A stretch of DNA of 64,000 nt, from positions 1-64,000 of the forward strand of contig JANQIW010000119.1 of assembly GCA_028281945.1 (NCBI GenBank), in the 5' to 3' direction. Position numbers and translations under genes: made by a program. The DNA is from Prochloraceae cyanobacterium PL24a_bin.78 (GTDB taxonomy: Bacteria; Cyanobacteriota; Cyanobacteriia; Cyanobacteriales; JANQIW01). The notes beneath the pieces were generated by a model that saw only the letters and a program-made list of their open reading frames with translations, was not told where the DNA came from and did no database searches. This document shows positions 39,062 through 50,665 of this stretch, piece after piece (within the stretch, counting starts at the first letter, position 1; each line of letters begins with the position of its first letter).

Positions 39062-40117
39062 TTATTGTTCATCAGTTTGATTATTTATTTCTTCATCAAG
39101 TTTACTGTCAGATTGAGGGTTTGATTCTTGGTAAATTTCTTCATCAGATTGATTATCAGATTTATAATAAGATTTTTTATCGGATTTATCGTATTCATTT
39201 TCACGACGATTACGCCACCATGCTAATAAAGTGCTAGCAAAAAAGATACTGGAGTATGAGCCTAAAGTAAATCCTATGATTAATGCTAGAGCAAAATATT
39301 TCAGTGTGTCTCCACCAAATAAAAATATCCCTACTAAAGGCAGTAAAGTAGTTAAAGTTGTATTGACTGAACGAGTTAAAGTTTGATTTACGCCGTAATC
39401 TACAATGGTATTTATGGAATCTTCGGGGTATTGTTCGATATTTTCCCGAATTCGATCGTAAATTACCACCGTATCGTTAACGGAAAAACCGATAATAGTC
39501 AGTAACGCAACTAAGAAAAGACTGTCAACTTCTAAGCCCAAGACTAAACCAAATACCGAGAATATTCCAGCAGTTATGACAACATCGTGAAATAAAGCCA
39601 GAATTGCAAAGATAGCATAGTCGAATTGGAAGCGCACACTTAGGTAAGCAATGATGCCAAAGAAAGAAACAATTAGTGCCAACAAACCGGATACGAATAA
39701 TTCTTGTCCAATAGTAGGCCCTACAGTATCAATTTGAGTTTTTGTCTCATCAAAAGTGCCTATTTTTTGACTTAAAACATTTTGTAATTGGGTGCGTTTT
39801 TCCACATTTAAAGTTTTGGTACCAATGGATAAACCAGTTTGAGAATTACCTACAATTTGGACATTACTATTACCTAAATCTTGATTATTTAAAACTTCTC
39901 TTACTTCGACAATATCAATAGGATTGTTGCAATTATCTGGAATATTACAATCTAATTCTAACTGTAATCTAGTTCCTCCAATAAAATCTAAACTAGGGCG
40001 TAAAGGCGCATTAAAAGTAAGAAAAGAAACAATCATTGCCAAGATACTAGCAATAATTCCAATTCCAGAAATACTCCACCAAATACGCTGACGTTTAATA
40101 ACACTAAATTGAATCAT
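39062..40117 (-). CDS. secF: Protein translocase subunit SecF
   Basis: SecF works with SecD to use the proton gradient during protein export. The 351-residue protein has the first membrane helix ([20 protein letters not shown]), the periplasmic domain opening with [15 protein letters not shown], and the transmembrane block with [19 protein letters not shown] and the conserved [17 protein letters not shown]. The last 45 residues are an unusual hydrophilic tail rich in Asp, Ser, Gln and Asn (repeats around KSDNQSDEE). secD lies upstream on the same strand, 159 bases away. Confidence 0.95.
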
Positions 40118-40276: not shown

Positions 40277-41698
40277 TCAATTATTAACAGGTAAATTAGG
40301 ACAAAATAATTCAGGTTTTTTGCGAATTCCAGGCACACCTAAAACAGTAAATAATAATAATGTGCGACTACAAGTAACCGCTGTAAACATACTAACTACC
40401 ACACCTGTAGCTAAAGTTAAAGCAAAACCTTTGACTAATCCGGAGCCTAACCAAAATAAAGCAGCACAAGCAATTAAAGTAGTTACATTACTATCTAGAA
40501 TACTAGAAAAAGCACGATAAAAACCCGATTCAACCGATCGATAAAGAGTTTTTCCCTTGCGTAATTCTTCCCTTGTGCGCTCAAAAATCAAGACATTAGC
40601 ATCAACAGCCATACCAATACTCAAGATAAAGCCTGCAATTCCCGGTAAAGTGAGGGTAACGCCAATGAGAGAATAGGCACTTAAGGTGAGGATAGTATAA
40701 ATTAACAAAGCAACATCAGCAATGATTCCTGGCAAGCGATAATAAACCGCCACATAAATCAATACCAAAGCCAAGCCAGCCACACCAGCAATAATACTTC
40801 TACGAATACTATCTTGCCCTAAACTAGCACCCACCGTGCGGTTTTCTACAATTTCCACAGGTACCGGTAACGCACCACCTTTGAGTTGTAAAGCCAACTC
40901 CCTAGCTTCTTGAATCCCGAAATTACCACTAACTACAGCCATACCACCTTCAATGCCTCGTTGTCGGTATTGTGCATCTACACGTGGCGCGCTGATTAAT
41001 TCATCGTCGAGAAAAATTCCCAAACCTCGGCCGGTTCCTGCTATTCTTTTGGTAAGCTCGGCAAATTTTGCTGCACCTTCGTTGTCAAAGGTAATAGCCA
41101 CTTCCCAGTTATCGCTATTAGGGATAGGTTGGTGTCTAGCGTTTGTGAGATTTTTACCGCTTAATTCCGCTTCCTCAAATAATTTTTTCCTAATCTCTTC
41201 TATTTCTTGTTGTTTGGCTACCAGTTGGGATTGTATTTCTTCATTATCTGGGTTTTCCAACTGTTGGGTGAGGATTTCGATCAATTCTTGTTGCCTAATA
41301 TCCAATTCTGCTTGGGTTTCAGGGTTATCGGTTTCCACCCTAAATTCCAATTGTGCGGTGCCTCCTAAGACTCTTTCTGCCTCTTCTGGGTTGCTTACCC
41401 CTGGCAGTTGTACTAAAATACGATCGTTCCCTACACTTTGAACTACTGCCTCGGATACCCCCAAACTATTAACTCTATTGCTAATAACTGCTTGCACACC
41501 TTCTAATTTATCTTGTGTAATTTCCGGTACTTTTTCGGTAGTTTTTAATTGTATAGTTAATTGGGAACCTCCCCTCAAGTCTAATCCCAGTTGAATGGGA
41601 GATTGTGGAGGGTTTTGTAGTAGTGGATAGGTTAAAAATGCCACTGCGCCTAATACTAAGGCTAATATTATGGCGATTAAAACGCGCTGTTTTTCCAT
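40277..41698 (-). CDS. secD: Protein translocase subunit SecD
   Basis: A 473-residue SecD. It begins with a membrane helix (VLIAIILALVLGAVAFLTYP), then PIQLGLDLRGGSQLTIQLKT, the conserved D-L-R-GG motif. The P1 head domain follows, with an inserted coiled coil rich in Gln and Glu near residues 155-195. The C-terminal membrane block includes SIGMAVDANVLIFERTREEL. Together with SecF it forms the SecDF export motor in the plasma and perhaps thylakoid membrane. It lies 159 bases upstream of secF; the gap has short imperfect direct repeats of GATAATTAATGGTT near 40128-40155. Confidence 0.96.
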   Translation of the reverse strand: MEKQRVLIAIILALVLGAVAFLTYPLLQNPPQSPIQLGLDLRGGSQLTIQLKTTEKVPEITQDKLEGVQAVISNRVNSLGVSEAVVQSVGNDRILVQLPGVSNPEEAERVLGGTAQLEFRVETDNPETQAELDIRQQELIEILTQQLENPDNEEIQSQLVAKQQEIEEIRKKLFEEAELSGKNLTNARHQPIPNSDNWEVAITFDNEGAAKFAELTKRIAGTGRGLGIFLDDELISAPRVDAQYRQRGIEGGMAVVSGNFGIQEARELALQLKGGALPVPVEIVENRTVGASLGQDSIRRSIIAGVAGLALVLIYVAVYYRLPGIIADVALLIYTILTLSAYSLIGVTLTLPGIAGFILSIGMAVDANVLIFERTREELRKGKTLYRSVESGFYRAFSSILDSNVTTLIACAALFWLGSGLVKGFALTLATGVVVSMFTAVTCSRTLLLFTVLGVPGIRKKPELFCPNLPVNN

Positions 41699-41945
41699 CT
41701 ATATTTTTTCTAATTTTGCTTTTGCTATGATAATACTTTTTAATGCTTTCTTAAATTAATGCTTGCTTAAGATATTTAGGTTTAAAGGTTGATTGGTTTT
41801 TAGTATAAAAATTTTTTGGTATTTATAAATTTAAGAGTTTTAATATTACTTCAGGTTAATCTTCATCTGAATTTTCTTTACTTGATTCTACAAAATAAAA
41901 GCCACTGGCTGCTGAAAGTAATGGTACGATTACTGTGAAGATTTT

Positions 41946-42248
41946 TTAGGCTGTTTCATCTATTATGGAATAAGCTTGTTGTTGATTTTCTGGTATCTCG
42001 AATAAGATTACCGATGCCATAATACAATACCACATAATTACTAATGTAAGTGCAGCTACAAAGATATAAGCCAAGTTTCTTGCGACTTTAGCTTTAATTT
42101 TTTTTACTGAAAGAGGTTCAATTTTTATTTCTTCTTTCCGTGCGCCTTTTTGTGTTTGTTCACTAATTTTTTCATATTTATCTTGATCTGCTGGTAGTTT
42201 TTTTTCAATTTCTCCACTTCCTATTAATTCTTGTTTTTTTTCTTCCAT
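41946..42248 (-). CDS. Small membrane protein, possibly cut short by an in-frame stop
   Basis: A 100-residue protein with a charged Lys/Glu-rich first half and one membrane segment (NLAYIFVAALTLVIMWYCIM). I do not recognise the family. Beyond the TAA at 41946-41948 the same frame continues for 29 codons, down to 41856, as KIFTVIVPLLSAASGFYFVE then SSKENSDED and stop. That would be a second membrane segment with an acidic tail. This suggests the original protein had two membrane helices and about 130 residues, and that the TAA is a nonsense mutation. It may instead be a natural end followed by chance coding-like sequence. Upstream of secD on the same strand. Confidence 0.55.
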   Translation of the reverse strand: MEEKKQELIGSGEIEKKLPADQDKYEKISEQTQKGARKEEIKIEPLSVKKIKAKVARNLAYIFVAALTLVIMWYCIMASVILFEIPENQQQAYSIIDETA

Positions 42249-42464
42249 AGTAATATTGATAATTATTTAATAATAAGCCCTATTTTAATATTTTATGTTA
42301 AATTGCAAGTGATTATTTCCTATAAAGACCAATTAAGCTTAGTTTATTTTGTTTGATGGGATGTTAAAATTTATGCCACGAAAATTTCTATAGACACAAA
42401 TTTTTAATTTTAATAATAGTAAATGAATATTACGTTTATTGATGAGATCTTTAGATTTAATTTT

Positions 42465-42713
42465 TTACTGTAGAGCTATATCCAATGTCATAAGTATTTC
42501 AGCCAAAGGATCTATTTTTTTGTTTGATAAACTATTTTTTTTGATTAATTCATCTGATTTACTTTTGTTTTCAGCGTAAAACTCCATTAGTTCTAATCCT
42601 CTAAGAATTACTTCTCCTTCGCTAATTCCTAGTTTTTTAGCTATTTGCTGAAGATATTGAGAGTTTTGACTATCTAAAGTTATTCTAGTTCCTGTTTTAT
42701 TTTTTTTAAACAT
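42465..42713 (-). CDS. Small ribbon-helix-helix-like protein
   Basis: An 82-residue protein. I choose the ATG at 42713 because a strong AAGGAG site precedes it by seven bases; an in-frame ATG at 42779 would add 22 basic residues without such a site. The segment TGTRITLDSQNSQYLQQIAK, followed by KLGISEGEVILRGLELMEFY, looks like a beta strand plus two helices, the ribbon-helix-helix layout of antitoxin-like regulators. The C-terminal third has no recognisable features. No toxin gene lies next to it. Confidence 0.6.
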   Translation of the reverse strand: MFKKNKTGTRITLDSQNSQYLQQIAKKLGISEGEVILRGLELMEFYAENKSKSDELIKKNSLSNKKIDPLAEILMTLDIALQ

Positions 42714-43198
42714 AGAACCACTCCTTTTTTTAGTGAACTTATTATTCATTTTATGGTTTTTATTTCTCAATTTGCTCAAGAATTTTGATGTTTTAAGCTA
42801 TTTCAAATTGTTTTTAGTTTAATTTTTGATCAATTTTTCTTGATTACAAAACCTATAGAATTTTTGGTTAACTTGTTTTTCCATTGAATATGCCTCCATA
42901 GAAAGATCAGGTTAAATGTCAAATTTACTTGATATAAAGCTACATTTATTATAATAGAAAAATATCCTGAAAAATTTCTACCGTCAAAAAAATTTAATAA
43001 CTAGAATTAACCCTCAATAAGATTTGCTAAATAATTGAGGTAAATCTAAGAATTCTTAATAGTTAAAAGCTAGAATTTGGTAACACTTAGCTGTTTACTT
43101 GTTAGCTTTGAAAATATATGCTATCTTTAGCAATTAAAATCAGACATAATATAAACAATATAGTAATATTATCAATAAATACAAAACTCAAAAAAACC
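42714..43198. other. Intergenic region upstream of the TPR gene
   Basis: About 485 AT-rich bases between divergent genes. An open frame continuous with the TPR gene extends upstream to 43118, but that part (Ile/Asn/Lys-rich, with no counterpart I know) is probably not translated. I see no repeat, RNA gene or clear terminator. Confidence 0.45.
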
Positions 43199-44995
43199 AT
43201 GGAAAACTGTGTAGAATTAATCGAAAAAATCATAGAACTTTATCTTAAAGGAAAAATCCGCTCCAAACAACAAATCAGCCAAATGTTAGCAGAAGGAATT
43301 ACCCAAGGGATGGGAGAAATATTCGATCGAGTATTAGAACAAAAAATAGAAGAAACCACCGCTCAACTAGAAACAAAACTCAAAGCAACAAGAGTTTTAA
43401 GAGCATTAGAAACCATCAAAAAAGAATGGATTAACTACCAAAAAGAAAACCAAGTAAACCAAACTATCGCAACAGCTACCCAACAAATCATAGCAACAGA
43501 AACCAACCAACAAATTCTCACCTTACTAAAAATAATCGATCCCAATAAAAAAGAAACCCTCAATCGAAAACAACTAACAGAATTAGCCGAATCCTTAAAA
43601 AATGAACCCTCCAAAACAGAAGAAATCAATCAACTAGCCAACGGAATTATAGAAGGATTAAAAGCATTTTCCCAACTAGAAGATCATATAATAAATTGGA
43701 TTTACGAACAAAATAAAAGTACATTAGGATTTGCCCAAGAAAAAAAAGGCCCATGGATTTATTGGGAGAAAAAAATCAATAGCCCACTTCCCAAACAACT
43801 ATTTCAAACCCTAGGAGAAGAAAAAGACATAACCGAAATATCCAGAAAATCAAATGAAAGAGAAATAGCAGCTTGGGTAGAATTAATAATTCTTCTCCAA
43901 TACCTCCAAAAAGGATTAGTAACCTGGTTTGATAAACAACCTTACGACGCAAAAATCGGCAAAAAATTATCCTACACAACCCTTCTATCTTTTTCCAATA
44001 TTTGGGCGCAATTATCAATAGGATTTAACCAAAAAAATCACCTTAACCAAGCCTGTTTTCAAGTAATGTTGCAAATACTTCGCACCCTTGCCAAACGAGA
44101 TGATTTTCCCCTTTATGGAGGAATTTTTGCCTCATTTTCTGGTAAATATCTCCAAAATGCTTTAACCTATTTTGATGAGCCTTTAACATTATTTGAAGGT
44201 GATCAAGATAAGGCACGTTTATTAGCATTATTAGGTTACTCCCAAAGAGTATTAGGAAATTATCAAAAAGCAAAAACTTTCCACGAAGAAGCCTTAGAAA
44301 TTTTGAGTAAAACTGAAGATAAACCTTGTTTTATAGCCCACCTAAATCATCTTTGTCGCATCTATATCGAAGAAAAAGAATATTCCCAAGCCATTAATTA
44401 TAGCCAGCGCGCCTTAATTTTTTCCCGCCAATATGCTGACAGATTAGGAGAAGCAAATGCCTTAGTAAATTTAGGGTATTCCAAAGTATTTTCTGCCAGA
44501 GAAATAGACTCCATGGATGCAACAATTTACCAAGAAGCTATCAACTATCTCGAAGAAGGTTTACAATTAGCAGAAAAATTAGGAGATCGATCGATCCTCG
44601 CATTAGGTTATAATAGCTTAGGAATAGCCTATCAAATGAATTCCCAACCTACCGCAGCAATTAAAGCCTTAGAATCTGCCAAAAAAGTCGCCCAATCTTT
44701 TGGAGATGCCTACCTTCAAGGATTAAATTTTGCCTACCTAGCCGAAGCATATTACAGTTTAGAAAACACTTCCGAAGCAATTCACAATGGATTTTTAGCC
44801 ATGTATCTTTTAAATCAAATTCAATCGGAAAAATGGCGATCAAGTGCCGGATTACTATCAATAATTTTAGGGCAAATAGGCACAGAAAAATTCCAAAGTA
44901 TTCTCTTAGAAAACCGCCCCAAAATAATAAGAATTATCGGAGTAGATGGCTACGATTACCTCCTAGAATTGCTCAACGAATATAATAATAACTAA
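43199..44995 (+). CDS. Tetratricopeptide repeat protein
   Basis: About 598 residues from the ATG at 43199 (MENCVELIEKIIELYLKGKI); an ATG at 43118 would add 27 unlikely residues. The first 170 residues are helical and Gln/Lys-rich. The region from about 320 to 560 holds TPR motifs, for example ARLLALLGYSQRVLGNYQKA, ALVNLGYSKVFSAREIDSMD and ALGYNSLGIAYQMNSQPTAA. TPR arrays bind other proteins. Large TPR proteins that open this way are frequent in cyanobacteria and uncharacterised as far as I know. It faces the CDPS cluster (convergent), so a functional link is not implied. Confidence 0.82.
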   Translation: MENCVELIEKIIELYLKGKIRSKQQISQMLAEGITQGMGEIFDRVLEQKIEETTAQLETKLKATRVLRALETIKKEWINYQKENQVNQTIATATQQIIATETNQQILTLLKIIDPNKKETLNRKQLTELAESLKNEPSKTEEINQLANGIIEGLKAFSQLEDHIINWIYEQNKSTLGFAQEKKGPWIYWEKKINSPLPKQLFQTLGEEKDITEISRKSNEREIAAWVELIILLQYLQKGLVTWFDKQPYDAKIGKKLSYTTLLSFSNIWAQLSIGFNQKNHLNQACFQVMLQILRTLAKRDDFPLYGGIFASFSGKYLQNALTYFDEPLTLFEGDQDKARLLALLGYSQRVLGNYQKAKTFHEEALEILSKTEDKPCFIAHLNHLCRIYIEEKEYSQAINYSQRALIFSRQYADRLGEANALVNLGYSKVFSAREIDSMDATIYQEAINYLEEGLQLAEKLGDRSILALGYNSLGIAYQMNSQPTAAIKALESAKKVAQSFGDAYLQGLNFAYLAEAYYSLENTSEAIHNGFLAMYLLNQIQSEKWRSSAGLLSIILGQIGTEKFQSILLENRPKIIRIIGVDGYDYLLELLNEYNNN

Positions 44996-45096
44996 CTATA
45001 TAAAATCAAAAACATATCCCTTAAATTTTCAGAAATAGAATTAATCTTAAAAGGGATATTACTAAAGTAATTTATTAATTGTTAATTATTAATTTT

Positions 45097-45840
45097 TTAA
45101 ATTTTGTTTCTCAGACGCAAACTCCCCCAAATCATATTTTGAACAGGAAAAGGAACATTAGTATGCAAACCTTGAGCAATTTCTTCAAATGTTTTAATGG
45201 AACCCGGATAAATTAAAACTAGCCATCCAGCTTTAGCAAGACAAGTAAACAAAGCAGATTCTTCTAACAAATAAGTTATAGCCAAATCCTTGTTTTGTTG
45301 GAAAAACCCTTCCACTTCCTCAGTATCAGCATTTTCAGGTTGAATTCGATGAAGATAATCCTCAGCAAAAGAATCAACTATTTGACAAAAAGCTTCATGA
45401 TTTTGATAAAGACTTTGAAACTCCTGATAATACACTTCAAAATCCCATTGCTTTTCAATCTCTGAAGTCAATTGAAATTTGAAACAACAACTTTCTTCAT
45501 ATTGCTGGAAAAGAGGATATTTCTCATTAATAAACTCCAATCCAGTATTAAGTGCCTTAAATCTACTCTCATTTTCATTAAATTGGGTTTTAACTTGGAT
45601 AGTAAGTCGATAGATGCTGTCAGTAACTAAAACTAAACAAGTTTTGAAATTCTTACTAATCCATTTGATAGAAGCTTGAAGTCGCCTATTATCCATAAAA
45701 TTTTTACTTCGTAAGCTGACTCCAAAAACACATTTTTCATAATCAAATAGATGATTACGCATCTTTTCTGGGAAAACCTTAGCTAAACTTGCTTTATAAA
45801 TATTAGCTTTTATCTTATCTTCGTTATAGTTATTATTCAT
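45097..45840 (-). CDS. tRNA-dependent cyclodipeptide synthase homologue 1 (XYP-like)
   Basis: A 247-residue protein matching the cyclodipeptide synthase (CDPS) family by motif. CDPSs use two aminoacyl-tRNAs to form cyclic dipeptides through an acyl-enzyme on a Ser. Here Ser42 in VFGVSLRSKNF aligns with AlbC Ser37, Tyr190 and Glu194 in TYLLEESALF with Tyr178 and Glu182, and Tyr211 in VLIYPGS with Tyr202. Pro212 after that Tyr and Ser45 at the AlbC Asn40 position place it in the XYP group. LVLVTDSIYRLTI is also family-like. It lies 220 bases downstream of a separate TerB-like gene and closely resembles the C-terminal domain of the fused gene at 46657-48021. No tailoring enzyme is nearby; the product is unknown. 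Confidence 0.85.
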   Translation of the reverse strand: MNNNYNEDKIKANIYKASLAKVFPEKMRNHLFDYEKCVFGVSLRSKNFMDNRRLQASIKWISKNFKTCLVLVTDSIYRLTIQVKTQFNENESRFKALNTGLEFINEKYPLFQQYEESCCFKFQLTSEIEKQWDFEVYYQEFQSLYQNHEAFCQIVDSFAEDYLHRIQPENADTEEVEGFFQQNKDLAITYLLEESALFTCLAKAGWLVLIYPGSIKTFEEIAQGLHTNVPFPVQNMIWGSLRLRNKI

Positions 45841-46060
45841 TAAAATTTTAAAATTCCAATATATTTTAAAGTACTTATATTAATTTTATTTAAGATTAGA
45901 ATAGATAAATTAGGAAAATCAACAATTAGAAATAAAAATTCCAGTTTAACTCTCTCACTATTTTATAAAATTAATATTATTACTTATTACTAAAAAAATA
46001 AGAGGGTAAAATACACCTCTATAGATTAAATAAAAAGTTCTTTTGAATTTTAAAAACCAA

Positions 46061-46540
46061 TTAAATATCAGTTTCAAATAAACCAAATCGTAATTTTTCA
46101 GTTGCATCTTCCAATTCCGCTAAAGATTCAATACTAACAACCACAGTTTTTTCTATGCCTAAAATCTCTGCTGCTTTAGCTACGTATGCTTTTTCTTTCG
46201 CATGATAATCTTCATCAGCTCGACACATTTTAATAGCTTGATATAACATAACTCGGCGGAAATTTATAGGAAAATCATACTTAATATTACCTAAAAGAGT
46301 CTCAATATTAGCATTCTTCCAATCTAATTTACGGATAGCTTCAATATATTCTTCAACATCGGCTAACAAGAGTTTCTGTTCATCAATATACCACTGAAGT
46401 TCTTTTTCATTTAACTCGCCATCTGCACCAGCAATAGCCATTAATGCATTAGCATAATTAACTGCTACGTCAAAATCAATTGGCTGAGTGATGTTATATC
46501 TTTTTTGAGCATATATAGTTGGTTGAAGAGTTTTTGCCAT
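46061..46540 (-). CDS. Stand-alone TerB-like domain protein
   Basis: A 159-residue helical protein resembling TerB (tellurite resistance) domains: the pattern ALMAIAGADGELNEKELQWY and, near the end, MCRADEDYHAKEKAYVAKAA with EILGI. The paired acidic motifs could bind metal. The N-terminus MAKTLQPTIYAQKRYNITQP is almost the same as that of the fused TerB-CDPS protein (46657-48021), so the two are recent duplicates. Next on the strand is CDPS homologue 1, so this pair looks like a split version of the fused gene. Function unknown; TerB proteins are known from stress and phage-resistance loci. Confidence 0.8.
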   Translation of the reverse strand: MAKTLQPTIYAQKRYNITQPIDFDVAVNYANALMAIAGADGELNEKELQWYIDEQKLLLADVEEYIEAIRKLDWKNANIETLLGNIKYDFPINFRRVMLYQAIKMCRADEDYHAKEKAYVAKAAEILGIEKTVVVSIESLAELEDATEKLRFGLFETDI

Positions 46541-46656
46541 AATTGTTTACCTCTGATTTAGATTATTCGGTACTATAATATCAGGGTTGGTGACACTATA
46601 AGAAGATAATTTCGTTATTTAACATTAATAAATTATTAAGTATTAATTGTTAATTA

Positions 46657-48021
46657 TTAATTTTTTATAACCTTTTTTTTCAGACGCAGACTAACCCAAA
46701 TCATATGTTGAAGAGGTAAAGGAACATCAGGATGCAAACCTTCAGCAATTTCTTCAAAAGTTTTTATCGATCCGGGATATACAAAAGCTGGCCATCCTGC
46801 TTTAGCAAGACAAGTAAAAAAAGCAGACTCTTCCAATAGATAAGTTGTAGCCAAATCCTTGTACTTCTGCATAAACTCTTGCATTTCCTCTGATTTTGCC
46901 TCTTCCCCTCTGTTAAGATAAATTTGGGCAAAAGAGTCAACCATCTTACCAAAAGATTCATTATTTTGATAAAGATTTTTAAAGTCGCCATAATAAGTCT
47001 CAAAGTCTGATTCCTTTTCAATCTCTGAAGTCAATTTAAACTCAAAGCGACAGCTTTCGTTGTATTTCTCAAAAAGAGGAGATTTCTCTTTGATATATTC
47101 TAATCCAGTATCAAGTGCTTCTGAGCGATTTTCATCTTCCTTCAGTTTGCTTCTAATTTGGATAGTAAGTCGATAGATACTGTCGGTAACTAAAACTAAA
47201 CAAGTTTTGAAGTTTTCGCTAATCCATTTAATGGAACCTTCAAGTCGTTTATCATTAACAAAGTTTTTGCTTCCTAGACTAATTAGAAAAACGCAACTTT
47301 GATAATCAGATAGAGATTTCCGTAGACGATCGGGGGAAACCTTGGCTAAACTTGCTTTGTAGGAATAATCTTCTGGCTTCTTGTCAGTAAATTCGATTAA
47401 TTTTAACTCTTCTTTTTTATGATCGATAGCTTTGCAGATGCTTGACTGAAACTCTTTTAACAACTCTAGAGATAAATGATTCCATTCAATCTTCTGAAGA
47501 TTTTCAATCATTTTTGATTCATCATTATCAATTTCTACTTTATCAGAAGTTTTTTGGGGAGATTCTTCATCATTTAGTTCGTTTATCTCTTCAAATATTG
47601 CTAAAGACTCAATACTAATAAGCACATGATCTTCGATATCTAAAATCTTTGCTGCTTTAGCTACAGATGCTTTTTCTTTTTGATGATAGTTCTCATCAGC
47701 TCGACACATTTTAATGGCTTGATATAACATTGTTCTGCGGAAATTCATCGGTAATTCATCTTTGATTTTAGTTAAAATTTCTTGAAGATTAGCATTTTTC
47801 CAATCAAATCTACGAATTTCTTCGAGGTATTCTTCAGAATTAATTAGAAAAATTTCCTGTTCTTGGACATACCATTGAAATTCTTCTTCTTTTAATTCAC
47901 CATCTGCTCCAGCAATACTCATTAATGCACGACCATAATTTATTGCTATTTCCAAATCGATTGGTTGAGTAATATTATATTTATGTTGAGCATATGGGGT
48001 TGGTTGAAGGGTTTTTGCCAT
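46657..48021 (-). CDS. TerB-like domain fused to a cyclodipeptide synthase domain
   Basis: A 454-residue two-domain protein. Residues 1-150 are TerB-like (ALMSIAGADGELKEEEFQWY is the signature near residue 32; MCRADENYHQKEKASVAKAA near 105). An acidic linker spans about 150-210. Residues 215-450 are a CDPS domain: Ser248 in VFLISLGSKNF aligns with the AlbC catalytic Ser37, Tyr394 and Glu398 in TYLLEESAFF with Tyr178 and Glu182, and Tyr415-Pro416 in FVYPGS with the XYP motif. All catalytic positions are kept. I know of no described CDPS with a TerB domain. The fusion suggests that the TerB part senses something or positions the synthase, which is inference. Its upstream sequence is a near copy of that of the stand-alone TerB gene. 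Confidence 0.85.
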   Translation of the reverse strand: MAKTLQPTPYAQHKYNITQPIDLEIAINYGRALMSIAGADGELKEEEFQWYVQEQEIFLINSEEYLEEIRRFDWKNANLQEILTKIKDELPMNFRRTMLYQAIKMCRADENYHQKEKASVAKAAKILDIEDHVLISIESLAIFEEINELNDEESPQKTSDKVEIDNDESKMIENLQKIEWNHLSLELLKEFQSSICKAIDHKKEELKLIEFTDKKPEDYSYKASLAKVSPDRLRKSLSDYQSCVFLISLGSKNFVNDKRLEGSIKWISENFKTCLVLVTDSIYRLTIQIRSKLKEDENRSEALDTGLEYIKEKSPLFEKYNESCRFEFKLTSEIEKESDFETYYGDFKNLYQNNESFGKMVDSFAQIYLNRGEEAKSEEMQEFMQKYKDLATTYLLEESAFFTCLAKAGWPAFVYPGSIKTFEEIAEGLHPDVPLPLQHMIWVSLRLKKKVIKN

Positions 48022-48116
48022 AGTTATTTATTTCTAATTTAGATGATTCGGTACTATAATATCAGCCTTAGTGACAGTATCATCAAACTATTATTTTATT
48101 GAAAATTAAAGAATTG

Positions 48117-48247
48117 TTAATTTTTTATAACACTTTTTTTCAGACGCAGACTAACCCAAATCATATGTTGAAGAGGAGAGGAATATTAAGTTGTAAGCTT
48201 TAATAAGCCTCAAAATCCAATTCTTTTTCAATCTCTAAAGCCAATTT
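48117..48247 (-). pseudogene. Relic of a further CDPS copy (two collapsed fragments)
   Basis: Two pieces of CDPS coding sequence survive in the gap between homologues 2 and 3. The lower piece (48117 to about 48175) reads QHMIWVSLRLKKSVIKN and stop, against QHMIWVSLRLKKKVIKN at the end of the fused protein. The upper piece (about 48202-48247) reads KLALEIEKELDFEAY then stop, against KLTSEIEKESDFETYY in the middle of the fused protein. Everything between them, about 100 residues, is missing. It is a deletion remnant of a duplicated gene closely related to the fused copy. Confidence 0.8.
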
Positions 48248-48310
48248 AATAATTAGTACTTCATAAATATTTTAAAATATTATTTATATTATTAATGTAA
48301 ATATTAGTTC

Positions 48311-49009
48311 CTACCTTTTTTTAAAATGAATAGAGACTAAAATTAATTCATTAATTTCTTCAAAAAGCTCAGGATATTCTCCATTAACTATCTCCGTTAA
48401 AGTGCTAAATAATCCGGGATATACCATAACAGAGAAACCACGTCTTTGAAGACAGGAGAAAATAGCAAATTCTTCTAAAAAATACTCACAAGATCTCTGA
48501 ATATAATCTTCTAATAAATCATTATTTACGTTATTCCATCGCCGATTATAATAATTTCGACTGAAAGCTTCAACAGACGATCGAAATTTAGGATTAGTGT
48601 TGAAGAATTCCTTTAGATATAAGTAAAAATATAGATAGTCTTTTGATTCTTGAATTTGGCTACAAGTTTCTATAGTGAATTTAGTTTTATCTTCAAATGC
48701 TCTGAAAATATATTCTTGTTCTTTAATGAAAGAATTGCCAATTTTGAGAGCTTCAACAAGTGCTATATTTGGATCAAAGGATTTGGTTGTCTCCAAAGTA
48801 ATACGATGAATACTATCTCCAACCAAAACTAGACAATGGGAAAACCGTAGTGAAACCCATTTAGCCATTGCCTTGAGCTTTTCTGGAGTAAAATTACTAT
48901 TCTCAAGACTTACACCCAAAAAACAGGAATCCAATTTTTCAAAACTTCTTCTAGCTGAAACAGGATAAACATAATCAGTTTTAGCACGATATTCTCGCGA
49001 TTCTAGCAT
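48311..49009 (-). CDS. tRNA-dependent cyclodipeptide synthase homologue 3 (divergent)
   Basis: A 232-residue CDPS homologue, clearly different from the other two. Ser34 in LGVSLENSNF aligns with AlbC Ser37, Tyr176 and Glu180 in EYFLEEFAIF with Tyr178 and Glu182, and Tyr197-Pro198 in MVYPGL with the YP motif. The family-typical LVLVGDSIHRITL is present. Unlike the other two it has Asn37 at the position of AlbC Asn40, so it combines the Asn of the NYH group with the YP of the XYP group. It has no TerB domain. It is the most upstream gene of the cluster on the minus strand; no cytochrome P450, oxidase or methyltransferase that usually modifies cyclodipeptides is adjacent. Confidence 0.83.
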   Translation of the reverse strand: MLESREYRAKTDYVYPVSARRSFEKLDSCFLGVSLENSNFTPEKLKAMAKWVSLRFSHCLVLVGDSIHRITLETTKSFDPNIALVEALKIGNSFIKEQEYIFRAFEDKTKFTIETCSQIQESKDYLYFYLYLKEFFNTNPKFRSSVEAFSRNYYNRRWNNVNNDLLEDYIQRSCEYFLEEFAIFSCLQRRGFSVMVYPGLFSTLTEIVNGEYPELFEEINELILVSIHFKKR

Positions 49010-49161
49010 ATATAAATTCTGAAATCTAAAATTGTAGCAAATCGAAATTCTTCAAATTATATTTAAAAACATAGATACCAGGGAAAAGCCCTGGAAAAAA
49101 TACAGTAAATGTGATAAAACTTAAGAGATTTTTATAATTAACTCTTACTTCATCTATAAAA

Positions 49162-50145
49162 CTAAATCTGATTTCCCATGATTTTATGCACAGCTTCAAC
49201 AATTTGATTAGGTTGAATAATAGTAAGACGTTCTAAAGTTCCATTATAAGGAGTAGGAATATCCTGAGAAGAAAGACGAATTACAGGAGCATCCAACTCA
49301 TCAAACAACTGCTCATTAATCAAAGCAGTTAACTCCGCCCCAATACCACCAGTTTTCATACACTCTTCCACAATAATCACCCGATGAGTTTTACGAATCG
49401 ACTCACCAATAGTATTCATATCCAGAGGCTTAAGAGAAATAAGATCAATTAATTCAGGATTAAACCCATCTTTTTCTAATTGTTTAAGAGCCTGTACACA
49501 ATGATGACGCATACGAGAATAACTTAATATTGTAACATCTGTACCAGAACGCACAATTTCTGCCTTATCTAAGGGAAGAGTATACTCTTGATGCGGAAGA
49601 TGTTCTTTAAGATTATATAAAAGAACGTGCTCAAAAAATAGTACTGGATTATCATCACGAATAGCAGACTTAAGTAAACCCTTAGCATTATAAGTAGTCG
49701 AACAAGCCACAATTTTCAAACCAGGCACAGCTTGGAAATAAGCCTCCAAACGCTGAGAATGTTCAGCCCCCAACTGTCGGCCCACACCACCGGGTCCACG
49801 AATTACCACTGGAATTTTGAAATTACCACCAGAAGTATACCGTAGCATACCAGCATTATTAGCAATTTGGTTAAAAGCTAAAAGCAAAAAACCCATATTC
49901 ATACCTTCAATAATGGGTCTTAAGCCAGTCATAGCAGCGCCTACCGCCATTCCAGTAAAGCTATTTTCCGCAATAGGAGTATCCAAAAGACGTAAATCCC
50001 CGTATTTTTTATAAAGATCCTTTGTTACTTTATAAGAGCCTCCATAATGGCCCACATCTTCTCCTAAAACGAAAACAGTATTATCACGAGCCATTTCTTC
50101 ATCGATTGCTTCTCGCAAAGCATTAAACATTAAAGTTTCTGTCAT
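49162..50145 (-). CDS. pdhB: Pyruvate dehydrogenase E1 component, beta subunit
   Basis: The E1 beta subunit forms, with E1 alpha, the thiamine-diphosphate enzyme that decarboxylates pyruvate. The 327-residue protein has the thiamine-diphosphate-binding half ([40 protein letters not shown]) and the C-terminal transketolase domain ([20 protein letters not shown]). Length and sequence match the cyanobacterial and chloroplast type. No E1 alpha, E2 or E3 gene is adjacent, which is usual in cyanobacteria. Confidence 0.95.
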
Positions 50146-50665
50146 GTAGTTTTTATCTCATCTATTCCTATAAAAGGAATATTATAGCAGTCAGCTATTA
50201 GATTAATTATCCTTACCGTTAAAGTTGAAACGGGCATTTCTAGAAATTGTTTGCAACCCGATTTGATTTAATAAGTAATAAGTAACTAAGTAATTAAGTA
50301 AATAAGATGCACTCTTTTTCTCCCTTGTCTTCCAAGTCTACCTTGTCTTCCAAGTCTACCTTGTCTTCCAAGTCTCAAGAAACTCCCCATCACCCATTCC
50401 CCCACTCTCCCACTCTCCCATTCCCCCACTCTCCCACTCTCCCCATCTGCCCATTCTCTAATTCTCCCATCCCCCATTCTCCTTACTCAATGTCAATCAT
50501 ACATAATTACCCAAAAAATGATATTAACTAGATTCGGCAGTCCTCAATGGGAAATGATACTATAAATCAGTTAAAATAGATTAAATAAAGAAGGCATAGT
50601 TAAAAGAATCTCTTTTTTTTATAGAGAGAAAATCTTTCAAGCTAGACTGGAGAAAAAAAACAAGC
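50146..50665. other. Intergenic region between divergent pdhB and dnaK1
   Basis: About 520 bases holding promoters for both genes, which I cannot place. The stretch 50267-50306 has short repeats of TAAGTAA type, and 50323-50478 is the large pyrimidine-rich tandem repeat listed separately. Open frames through the repeat on both strands are products of its composition. Confidence 0.6.
50323..50478. repeat. Two adjacent short tandem repeat arrays, pyrimidine-rich
   Basis: The first array is three copies of the 18-base unit CCTTGTCTTCCAAGTCTA (50323-50340, 50341-50358, 50359-50375, the last lacking its final base). It is followed by about 100 bases of degenerate units built from CCCACTCT and CCCATTC. 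Almost all pyrimidine on the plus strand. It lies about 190 bases before the dnaK1 start. The 9-base unit at 10974-11013 shares its CTTGTCTTCC core. Confidence 0.9.

Follow-up and report, generated by a model that had tools for sequence, protein, structure and literature searches.

A cyanobacterial array of cyclodipeptide synthase genes with adjoining and fused TerB domains

The stretch of DNA analysed here (the window) comprises 64,000 nt from Prochloraceae cyanobacterium PL24a_bin.78. The minus strand between positions 45097 and 49009 of the window carries three genes for cyclodipeptide synthases (CDPS) and two TerB domains, all with intact frames. In the direction of transcription the order is: a CDPS of 232 aa (48311–49009; the first CDPS), a protein of 454 aa that joins TerB and a CDPS in one reading frame (46657–48021; the fusion), a stand-alone TerB of 159 aa (46061–46540) and a CDPS of 247 aa (45097–45840; the last CDPS). 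Within the fusion, TerB takes up approximately residues 1–150 and is followed by a linker and then by the CDPS at approximately residues 219–451. A preliminary description of this DNA had recorded three CDPS homologues on one strand with TerB partners, and this is borne out by the coordinates and by profiles TIGR04539 and PF05099. To it can be added the in-frame fusion and the degraded pieces of a further CDPS at 48112–48249.

All three CDPS exceed the cut-off (45 bits) of TIGR04539 (tRNA-dependent cyclodipeptide synthase), with scores of 114.5 bits for the first CDPS, 50.7 bits for the fusion and 54.9 bits for the last CDPS. The preliminary description had named PF16715 (cut-off 27 bits) as the profile to be searched, and this expectation stood in part: the first CDPS passes with 45.3 bits, whereas the last CDPS (14.6 bits) and the fusion (not listed) are missed. 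The first CDPS is also the sole match when the whole genome is searched with PF16715. PF16715 is less sensitive than TIGR04539 for these genes. In phmmer searches against PDB sequences all three match the solved CDPS 9j61 (E 9.2e-76 for the first CDPS, 6.5e-39 for the fusion and 6.3e-38 for the last CDPS). Both TerB domains are over the cut-off (24.4 bits) of PF05099, at 36.7 bits for the stand-alone gene and 33.9 bits for the fusion, and the stand-alone TerB matches the solved family member 2ou3 (E 5.4e-6). They are like the TerB family in profile and in PDB sequence match and unlike it in that they fall in a cyanobacterial set that accompanies CDPS and other natural-product genes. Among the aligned TerBs, Lys104, Asp109, Tyr112 and Glu116 are conserved in 33 of 33 rows.

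The equivalents of the catalytic residues Ser37, Tyr178, Glu182 and Tyr202 of AlbC, which the preliminary description had aligned by eye, are confirmed and are invariant among seven aligned homologues. They are Ser42/Tyr190/Glu194/Tyr211 in the last CDPS (its homologue 1) and, as counted by hand on PDB alignments, Ser248/Tyr394/Glu398/Tyr415 in the fusion and Ser34/Tyr176/Glu180/Tyr197 in the first CDPS. All four residues are present in 33 of the 37 rows of a CDPS alignment that includes 9j61; the other four rows are a truncated gene and three members of a distant branch. A distant branch (L071:8011-8676, L145:8015-8719 and L147:2896-3612) has Phe in place of Tyr178 and no TerB in the fetched stretch. 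The last catalytic Tyr is followed by Pro (AlbC position 203) in all three CDPS of the array, and residue 40 is Ser, Ser and Asn. This places them in the XYP subfamily, which is characterized by Pro203 rather than by the N40/H203 pair of the NYH subfamily (PMC13062777).

Of the three proteins the fusion was the one modelled, using eight sequences. The model has a mean pLDDT of 77.7 and a pTM of 0.53; pLDDT exceeds 90 over the greater part of the CDPS and is approximately 70–85 in TerB. Foldseek ranks 1–48 for this model are all CDPS structures, the top match being 9j61 (TM 0.94–0.96, normalized by target), and AlbC itself (3oqv) is at rank 39. The CDPS part therefore matches the fold that the preliminary description had proposed for comparison with AlbC. 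Judged from sequence, the array is confirmed as three intact genes for XYP-type CDPS, one of them fused to TerB. The predicted enzymes are like other XYP CDPS in profile (TIGR04539/PF16715), fold (as modelled for the fusion), catalytic Ser/Tyr/Glu/Tyr and Pro after the last Tyr, and unlike them in that here TerB adjoins or is fused to the enzyme.

A tree built from 37 CDPS domains places the CDPS of the fusion and the last CDPS as each other's nearest relatives (support 100/98), within what we call the TerB clade of CDPS. Over 148 residues the two TerB domains of the array share 66% identity, and direct repeats with a period of approximately 1.5 kb run through both TerB–CDPS units. Additionally, the two TerB genes agree at 47 of the 57 bases immediately upstream of their start codons, with an identical 18-mer that lies at 48046–48063 before the fusion and at 46565–46582 before the stand-alone TerB (both on the minus strand). 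Taken together, the shared leader, the similarity of the TerB domains, the sisterhood of the CDPS and the repeats indicate that the duplicated unit consisted of leader, TerB and CDPS and that the genes were fused in one copy. On this evidence the fusion and the last CDPS are products of a tandem duplication of a TerB–CDPS unit. The TerB tree leaves the duplication unsettled, with both window TerBs in a group of four together with two others (90/86). The best matches to the leader 18-mer in other genomes carry six to nine mismatches, the same as shuffled sequences, and upstream of the last CDPS the only strong tblastn match to a lost N-terminal extension (E 1e-8) is inside the gene itself, no remnant being seen in the intergenic region.

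The degraded pieces (48112–48176 and 48201–48249, minus strand) match parts of the fusion gene with identities of 93% (71 bases) and 86% (49 bases), and they take part in the direct repeats D4 and D5 (three copies). By their similarity they are the remains of a further TerB-clade CDPS copy. Such remains would also be expected of a decaying, unused island in which drift would account for the duplication, the remnants and a fusion found in a single assembly, and some relatives (G639:C90 and G448:C109) have broken CDPS genes. We regard this as very unlikely, given three intact frames with catalytic residues and best matches, outside the window, of 61–68% identity in other genomes. dN is also below dS in close pairs from relatives, with ratios of 0.23–0.34 for CDPS (four pairs), 0.08–0.19 for TerB (three pairs) and 0.21 for P450 (one pair).

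The first CDPS belongs to another branch. It groups with the P450-adjacent CDPS of genomes G610, G622 and G630 and with the CDPS of G447 and G405 (100/99), and this group lies next to 9j61 (94/88). The PDB title describes 9j61 as a CDPS of Streptomyces sapporonensis, a synonym of S. cinnamoneus, which is the bicyclomycin producer (PMC6934819). BcmA of bicyclomycin biosynthesis makes cyclo(Ile-Leu) (PMC6934819, PMC5930311), and bcmA alone restored cyclo(Ile-Leu) (PMC6934819). We infer that 9j61 is BcmA; the code 9j61 was not found in the literature searched. The first CDPS is like this presumed BcmA in being 52.2% identical to it over 228 columns and in having the same residues (F33, G35, I185, F186 and M200) at the five readable positions of the eight in the AlbC P1 pocket (PMC5816076). 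Its product is probably a leucine/isoleucine cyclodipeptide. At AlbC positions 35, 185 and 200 the last CDPS has G, L and L and the fusion has L, F and F. As these pockets differ from that of the first CDPS and from each other, the two may use other amino acids and probably make other products, with the caution that the P1-pocket model was built on NYH enzymes (PMC5816076). In all 19 rows of TerB-clade CDPS there is a Lys at the place of AlbC 207 (P2 pocket; five residues after the last catalytic Tyr), if no gap intervenes, which might indicate that the second amino acid is acidic. Unlike in the bicyclomycin cluster, a P450 and 2-oxoglutarate dioxygenases were not recognized beside the first CDPS. 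Indeed, among the 16 proteins scanned between 36360 and 57046 no tailoring enzyme was recognized, in agreement with the preliminary description, and the three P450 places in the genome are all on other contigs.

The pairing of TerB with CDPS, for which the preliminary description had suggested a survey of genomes, recurs in related genomes. We searched 388 genomes sampled from the larger order and also 388 genomes of the class with TIGR04539; matches over the cut-off were present in 26 of the former, at 37 places, and in three of the latter (the window's genome is in both sets). The 37 places were selected on CDPS alone, after which their surroundings were fetched, distances were measured and the tally was made by hand. 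There is a TerB of the window clade within 3 kb of the CDPS at 25 of the 37 places, or at 22 of 34 if the window's genome is left out. On the strand of the CDPS, TerB comes first at 16 places and second (as TerB or as the fusion gene) at three; it is fused at one and on the opposite strand at five. By comparison, 0.19 such places would be expected if five TerB genes per genome, a generous number, were placed randomly; PF05099 finds five places in the window's genome, two of them in the array. Counted by genome, 21 have both, five CDPS only, four a close TerB only and 358 neither (Fisher p 3e-26); the corresponding numbers by genus are nine, three, two and 135 (p 1.5e-10). These p-values are a guide, since the genomes are related and few candidates were scored in each. 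A TerB was called close at E below 1e-37, and at most four candidates were scored in most genomes, so that the counts are lower bounds.

TerB stands beside 17 of the 19 rows of TerB-clade CDPS and also accompanies the BcmA-like branch, so that it is found with two distant branches of CDPS. Where TerB precedes the CDPS the spacing is 47–621 bases, except at G696:C200, where the two are separated by a methyltransferase gene; the order CDPS then TerB is found at loci L056 and L082. Among the 25 places the TerB of G438, the TerB of G630 and the CDPS of G696:C200 (at a contig end) are partial. Of 30 TerB leaders, 14 have the motif TTGACA at 58–75 bases upstream of the TerB start (mean 1.4 and maximum 5 in 200 shuffles), which indicates that the promoter of a pair is often located ahead of TerB.

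The recurrence of the pairing suggests that TerB is probably part of peptide synthesis. We favour, with somewhat better than even confidence, the interpretation that the array is a natural-product island in which TerB is a dedicated partner of the CDPS. Each of the three CDPS would use two aminoacyl-tRNAs one after the other, with the growing dipeptide attached to the catalytic serine until it is released in cyclic form. TerB would bind the synthase and help it to use aminoacyl-tRNA, through activation, folding or substrate presentation, and would do so typically as the product of the gene just before the CDPS and, in the array, additionally as a part of one.

Several observations weigh against this interpretation. 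There is no TerB within 3 kb at 12 of the 37 CDPS places (G514:C329, G577:C701, two in G399, G710, G405, G416, G685, G448:C104, G550:C166, G461:C3 and G639), of which two are on a contig of approximately 3 kb (G514:C329, 3.2 kb) or at a contig start (G577:C701) and one, G639, has a broken CDPS. Four genomes have a close TerB and no CDPS over the cut-off, and the five opposite-strand places among the 25 also count against it. The fusion is seen in one assembly, its relatives having two genes, and both TerB leaders of the window are without TTGACA. In the model of the fusion the TerB part has no TerB structure among the 50 Foldseek matches listed, and the orientation of TerB relative to the CDPS is uncertain, as the pTM indicates. 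CDPS 99 from Lyngbya confervoides, the sole cyanobacterial entry recognized in Table 1 of PMC5816076 and one whose branch was not placed, gave no product in Escherichia coli. Finally, TerB is also found beside genes for non-ribosomal peptide synthetases (NRPS) and methyltransferases, and what it serves may therefore be a product or pathway and not the synthase itself.

The neighbouring genes bear on this last point. The 41 loci compared were chosen for CDPS or close TerB matches, so that neighbour counts are biased toward both families; the most widespread neighbour cluster besides these two occurs at seven. At L060, L081 and L144 a P450 comes after the CDPS, with a convergent TerB 1.8–2.6 kb from the CDPS. 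These loci are likely to encode an uncharacterized pathway to an oxidized cyclodipeptide. Their P450, of 511 aa, is divergent and lies between a BcmA-like CDPS and TerB (L060:8202-9737, L081:1482-3017 and L144:6468-8003; PF00067 at approximately 55 bits in the two scanned). P450 sequences are also present as a piece at a contig end with the CDPS of L067, with TerB at L093 and as a fragment near TerB at L084. Where the stretch has TerB and no CDPS, there is a methyltransferase with a haem-oxygenase-like gene (L088), a methyltransferase (L091) or an NRPS (L086 and, by protein cluster, L090). L062 has TerB, CDPS and then an NRPS, and the TerB-clade copy of L146 is among those beside methyltransferase or NRPS genes. 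These companions, together with the convergent TerB of the three CDPS–P450 loci, would suit a TerB that acts after synthesis to bind, store, export or give tolerance to the cyclodipeptide or a modified product, leaving the synthase unaffected. We consider such a role unlikely: TerB is fused to a CDPS in the array, and at 16 of the 25 places it precedes the CDPS on the same strand, the two being consecutive genes in all but G696:C200.

The preliminary description had proposed a stress or defence role from the presence of TerB and the lack of tailoring genes. This is not supported, because relatives pair TerB with CDPS and P450 (in three genomes), methyltransferase and NRPS genes, PADLOC has no match for the three CDPS proteins, and TerC and TerD are encoded on other contigs. 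In the Ter stress-response operon TerB occurs together with TerC and TerD genes. The window's genome has six TerD genes (contigs C29, C89 and C118) and one TerC gene (C9), none of them on the window's contig (C104), and the array is not a Ter operon in this sense. Four of the TerD genes are close together at G000:C29:87064-90247, apart from the array. Nevertheless, TerB might be a sensor of stress, metal or conflict that switches on cyclodipeptide production, as the preliminary description had outlined. Pfam labels the family 'tellurite resistance protein', and there are NACHT NTPase genes near the TerB–CDPS pairs of L054 and L066, with the same protein cluster near L078 and L093. The position of the TerC and TerD genes, the biosynthetic company of the close relatives of the array TerBs and the PADLOC result for the CDPS all argue against a sensor, and we judge it improbable. 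On balance a biosynthetic role of the TerB–CDPS loci is favoured, while the NACHT neighbours may point to a conflict-related role. For the window genes themselves a defence role is not supported by PADLOC, the NACHT genes notwithstanding; an 18.2-bit match of the stand-alone TerB to LmuB is weak and was taken as chance. The NACHT genes (L054:2511-4619 and L066:3247-6705; PF05729) were recorded as raw occurrences.

A second type of N-terminal partner is found in relatives. Seven CDPS have a long N-terminus, and in four of these PF04073 (aminoacyl-tRNA editing, YbaK-like) is over its cut-off (L092:7907-9121, L076:7489-8649, L077:7907-9064 and L079:7044-8078). It is below the cut-off in L075 (L075:3744-4904) and not listed for L078, which has a weak phmmer match, or for L080. 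Of the seven, only L078 and L080 have TerB beside them. TerB and the editing domain may therefore be alternatives, although the numbers are small, and such alternation favours a role of TerB on the aminoacyl-tRNA side. A more specific form of the favoured interpretation, which we put forward tentatively and think unlikely as a whole, is that TerB of the window clade is a so far unrecognized subunit of tRNA-dependent peptide synthesis. It would bind the CDPS and deliver or proof-read aminoacyl-tRNA in the place of the YbaK-like domain, and its absence would explain why some cyanobacterial CDPS are inactive alone in E. coli. Many inactive XYP CDPS come from fungi, cyanobacteria or metagenomic species, and the explanations offered are that the tRNAs of E. 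coli do not suit them or that the start codons are wrong (PMC5816076). A missing TerB may be a further reason.

If the synthases need TerB, tRNA-dependent peptide synthesis would gain an accessory subunit of a new kind, some members of the TerB family would take on a meaning outside tellurite resistance, and the inactivity of cyanobacterial CDPS in E. coli (PMC5816076) would become testable. TerB would then also mark cyanobacterial loci for cyclodipeptides whose CDPS score below the Pfam cut-off, as two of the three do here. What is new here is the pairing across genomes of the same order. The whole words 'cyclodipeptide' and 'TerB' did not co-occur in the open-licence PMC papers searched, and the word TerB is not in the text of PMC5816076, PMC2922099 or PMC5767969. 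One CDPS cluster was reported by antiSMASH in each of nine Roseofilum metagenome-assembled genomes (PMC9967302); these are like the array in being CDPS genes in cyanobacteria and unlike it in that the section concerned gives counts, with no mention of TerB.

The editing-domain CDPS have neighbours of their own. At L092 a SIR2-TIR gene overlaps the CDPS by 20 bases and there is also an nSTAND1-WD40 gene (region L092:3035-12987). WD40 proteins are encoded near the CDPS of L076 (4168–8649) and L077 (3673–10745), and patatin-like phospholipases that match PADLOC effectors are found at L092 and L077. A conflict system that includes the CDPS is possible in these neighbourhoods. They speak for the stress or defence reading of the preliminary description, albeit beside a CDPS branch different from that of the TerB–CDPS pairs.

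The site of the array was compared with that of relatives. Pfam names the flanking genes as a transketolase-type E1-beta (49162–50145), which we take to be pdhB, SecD (40277–41698) and SecF (39062–40117). Of 19 relatives, 16 have pdhB and secD separated by 82–392 bases, measured between match ends; in the remaining three pdhB is outside the stretch examined. In the window, gene-family and neighbour-gene comparison gives a gap of 7.46 kb (41699–49161) that holds the CDPS/TerB array, a tetratricopeptide-repeat (TPR) gene and two short ORFs, and in relatives the TerB–CDPS pairs stand among other genes. Base composition was considered as a sign of insertion and is not distinctive (G+C 0.302; mean 0.330, SD 0.021 in 4-kb windows). 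A scan of 44900–50300 for consensus promoters and terminators gave counts at chance level, a plasmid search gave distant partial matches only, and viral contigs gave no match for the first CDPS. The TPR gene (43118–44995, plus strand) encodes a protein of 625 aa with a match to PF13424 (TPR_12, 1e-16) and a 35-bit TPR match in PADLOC. It is part of the pdhB–secD insert and runs on the strand opposite to the CDPS array, with which it is arranged end to end.

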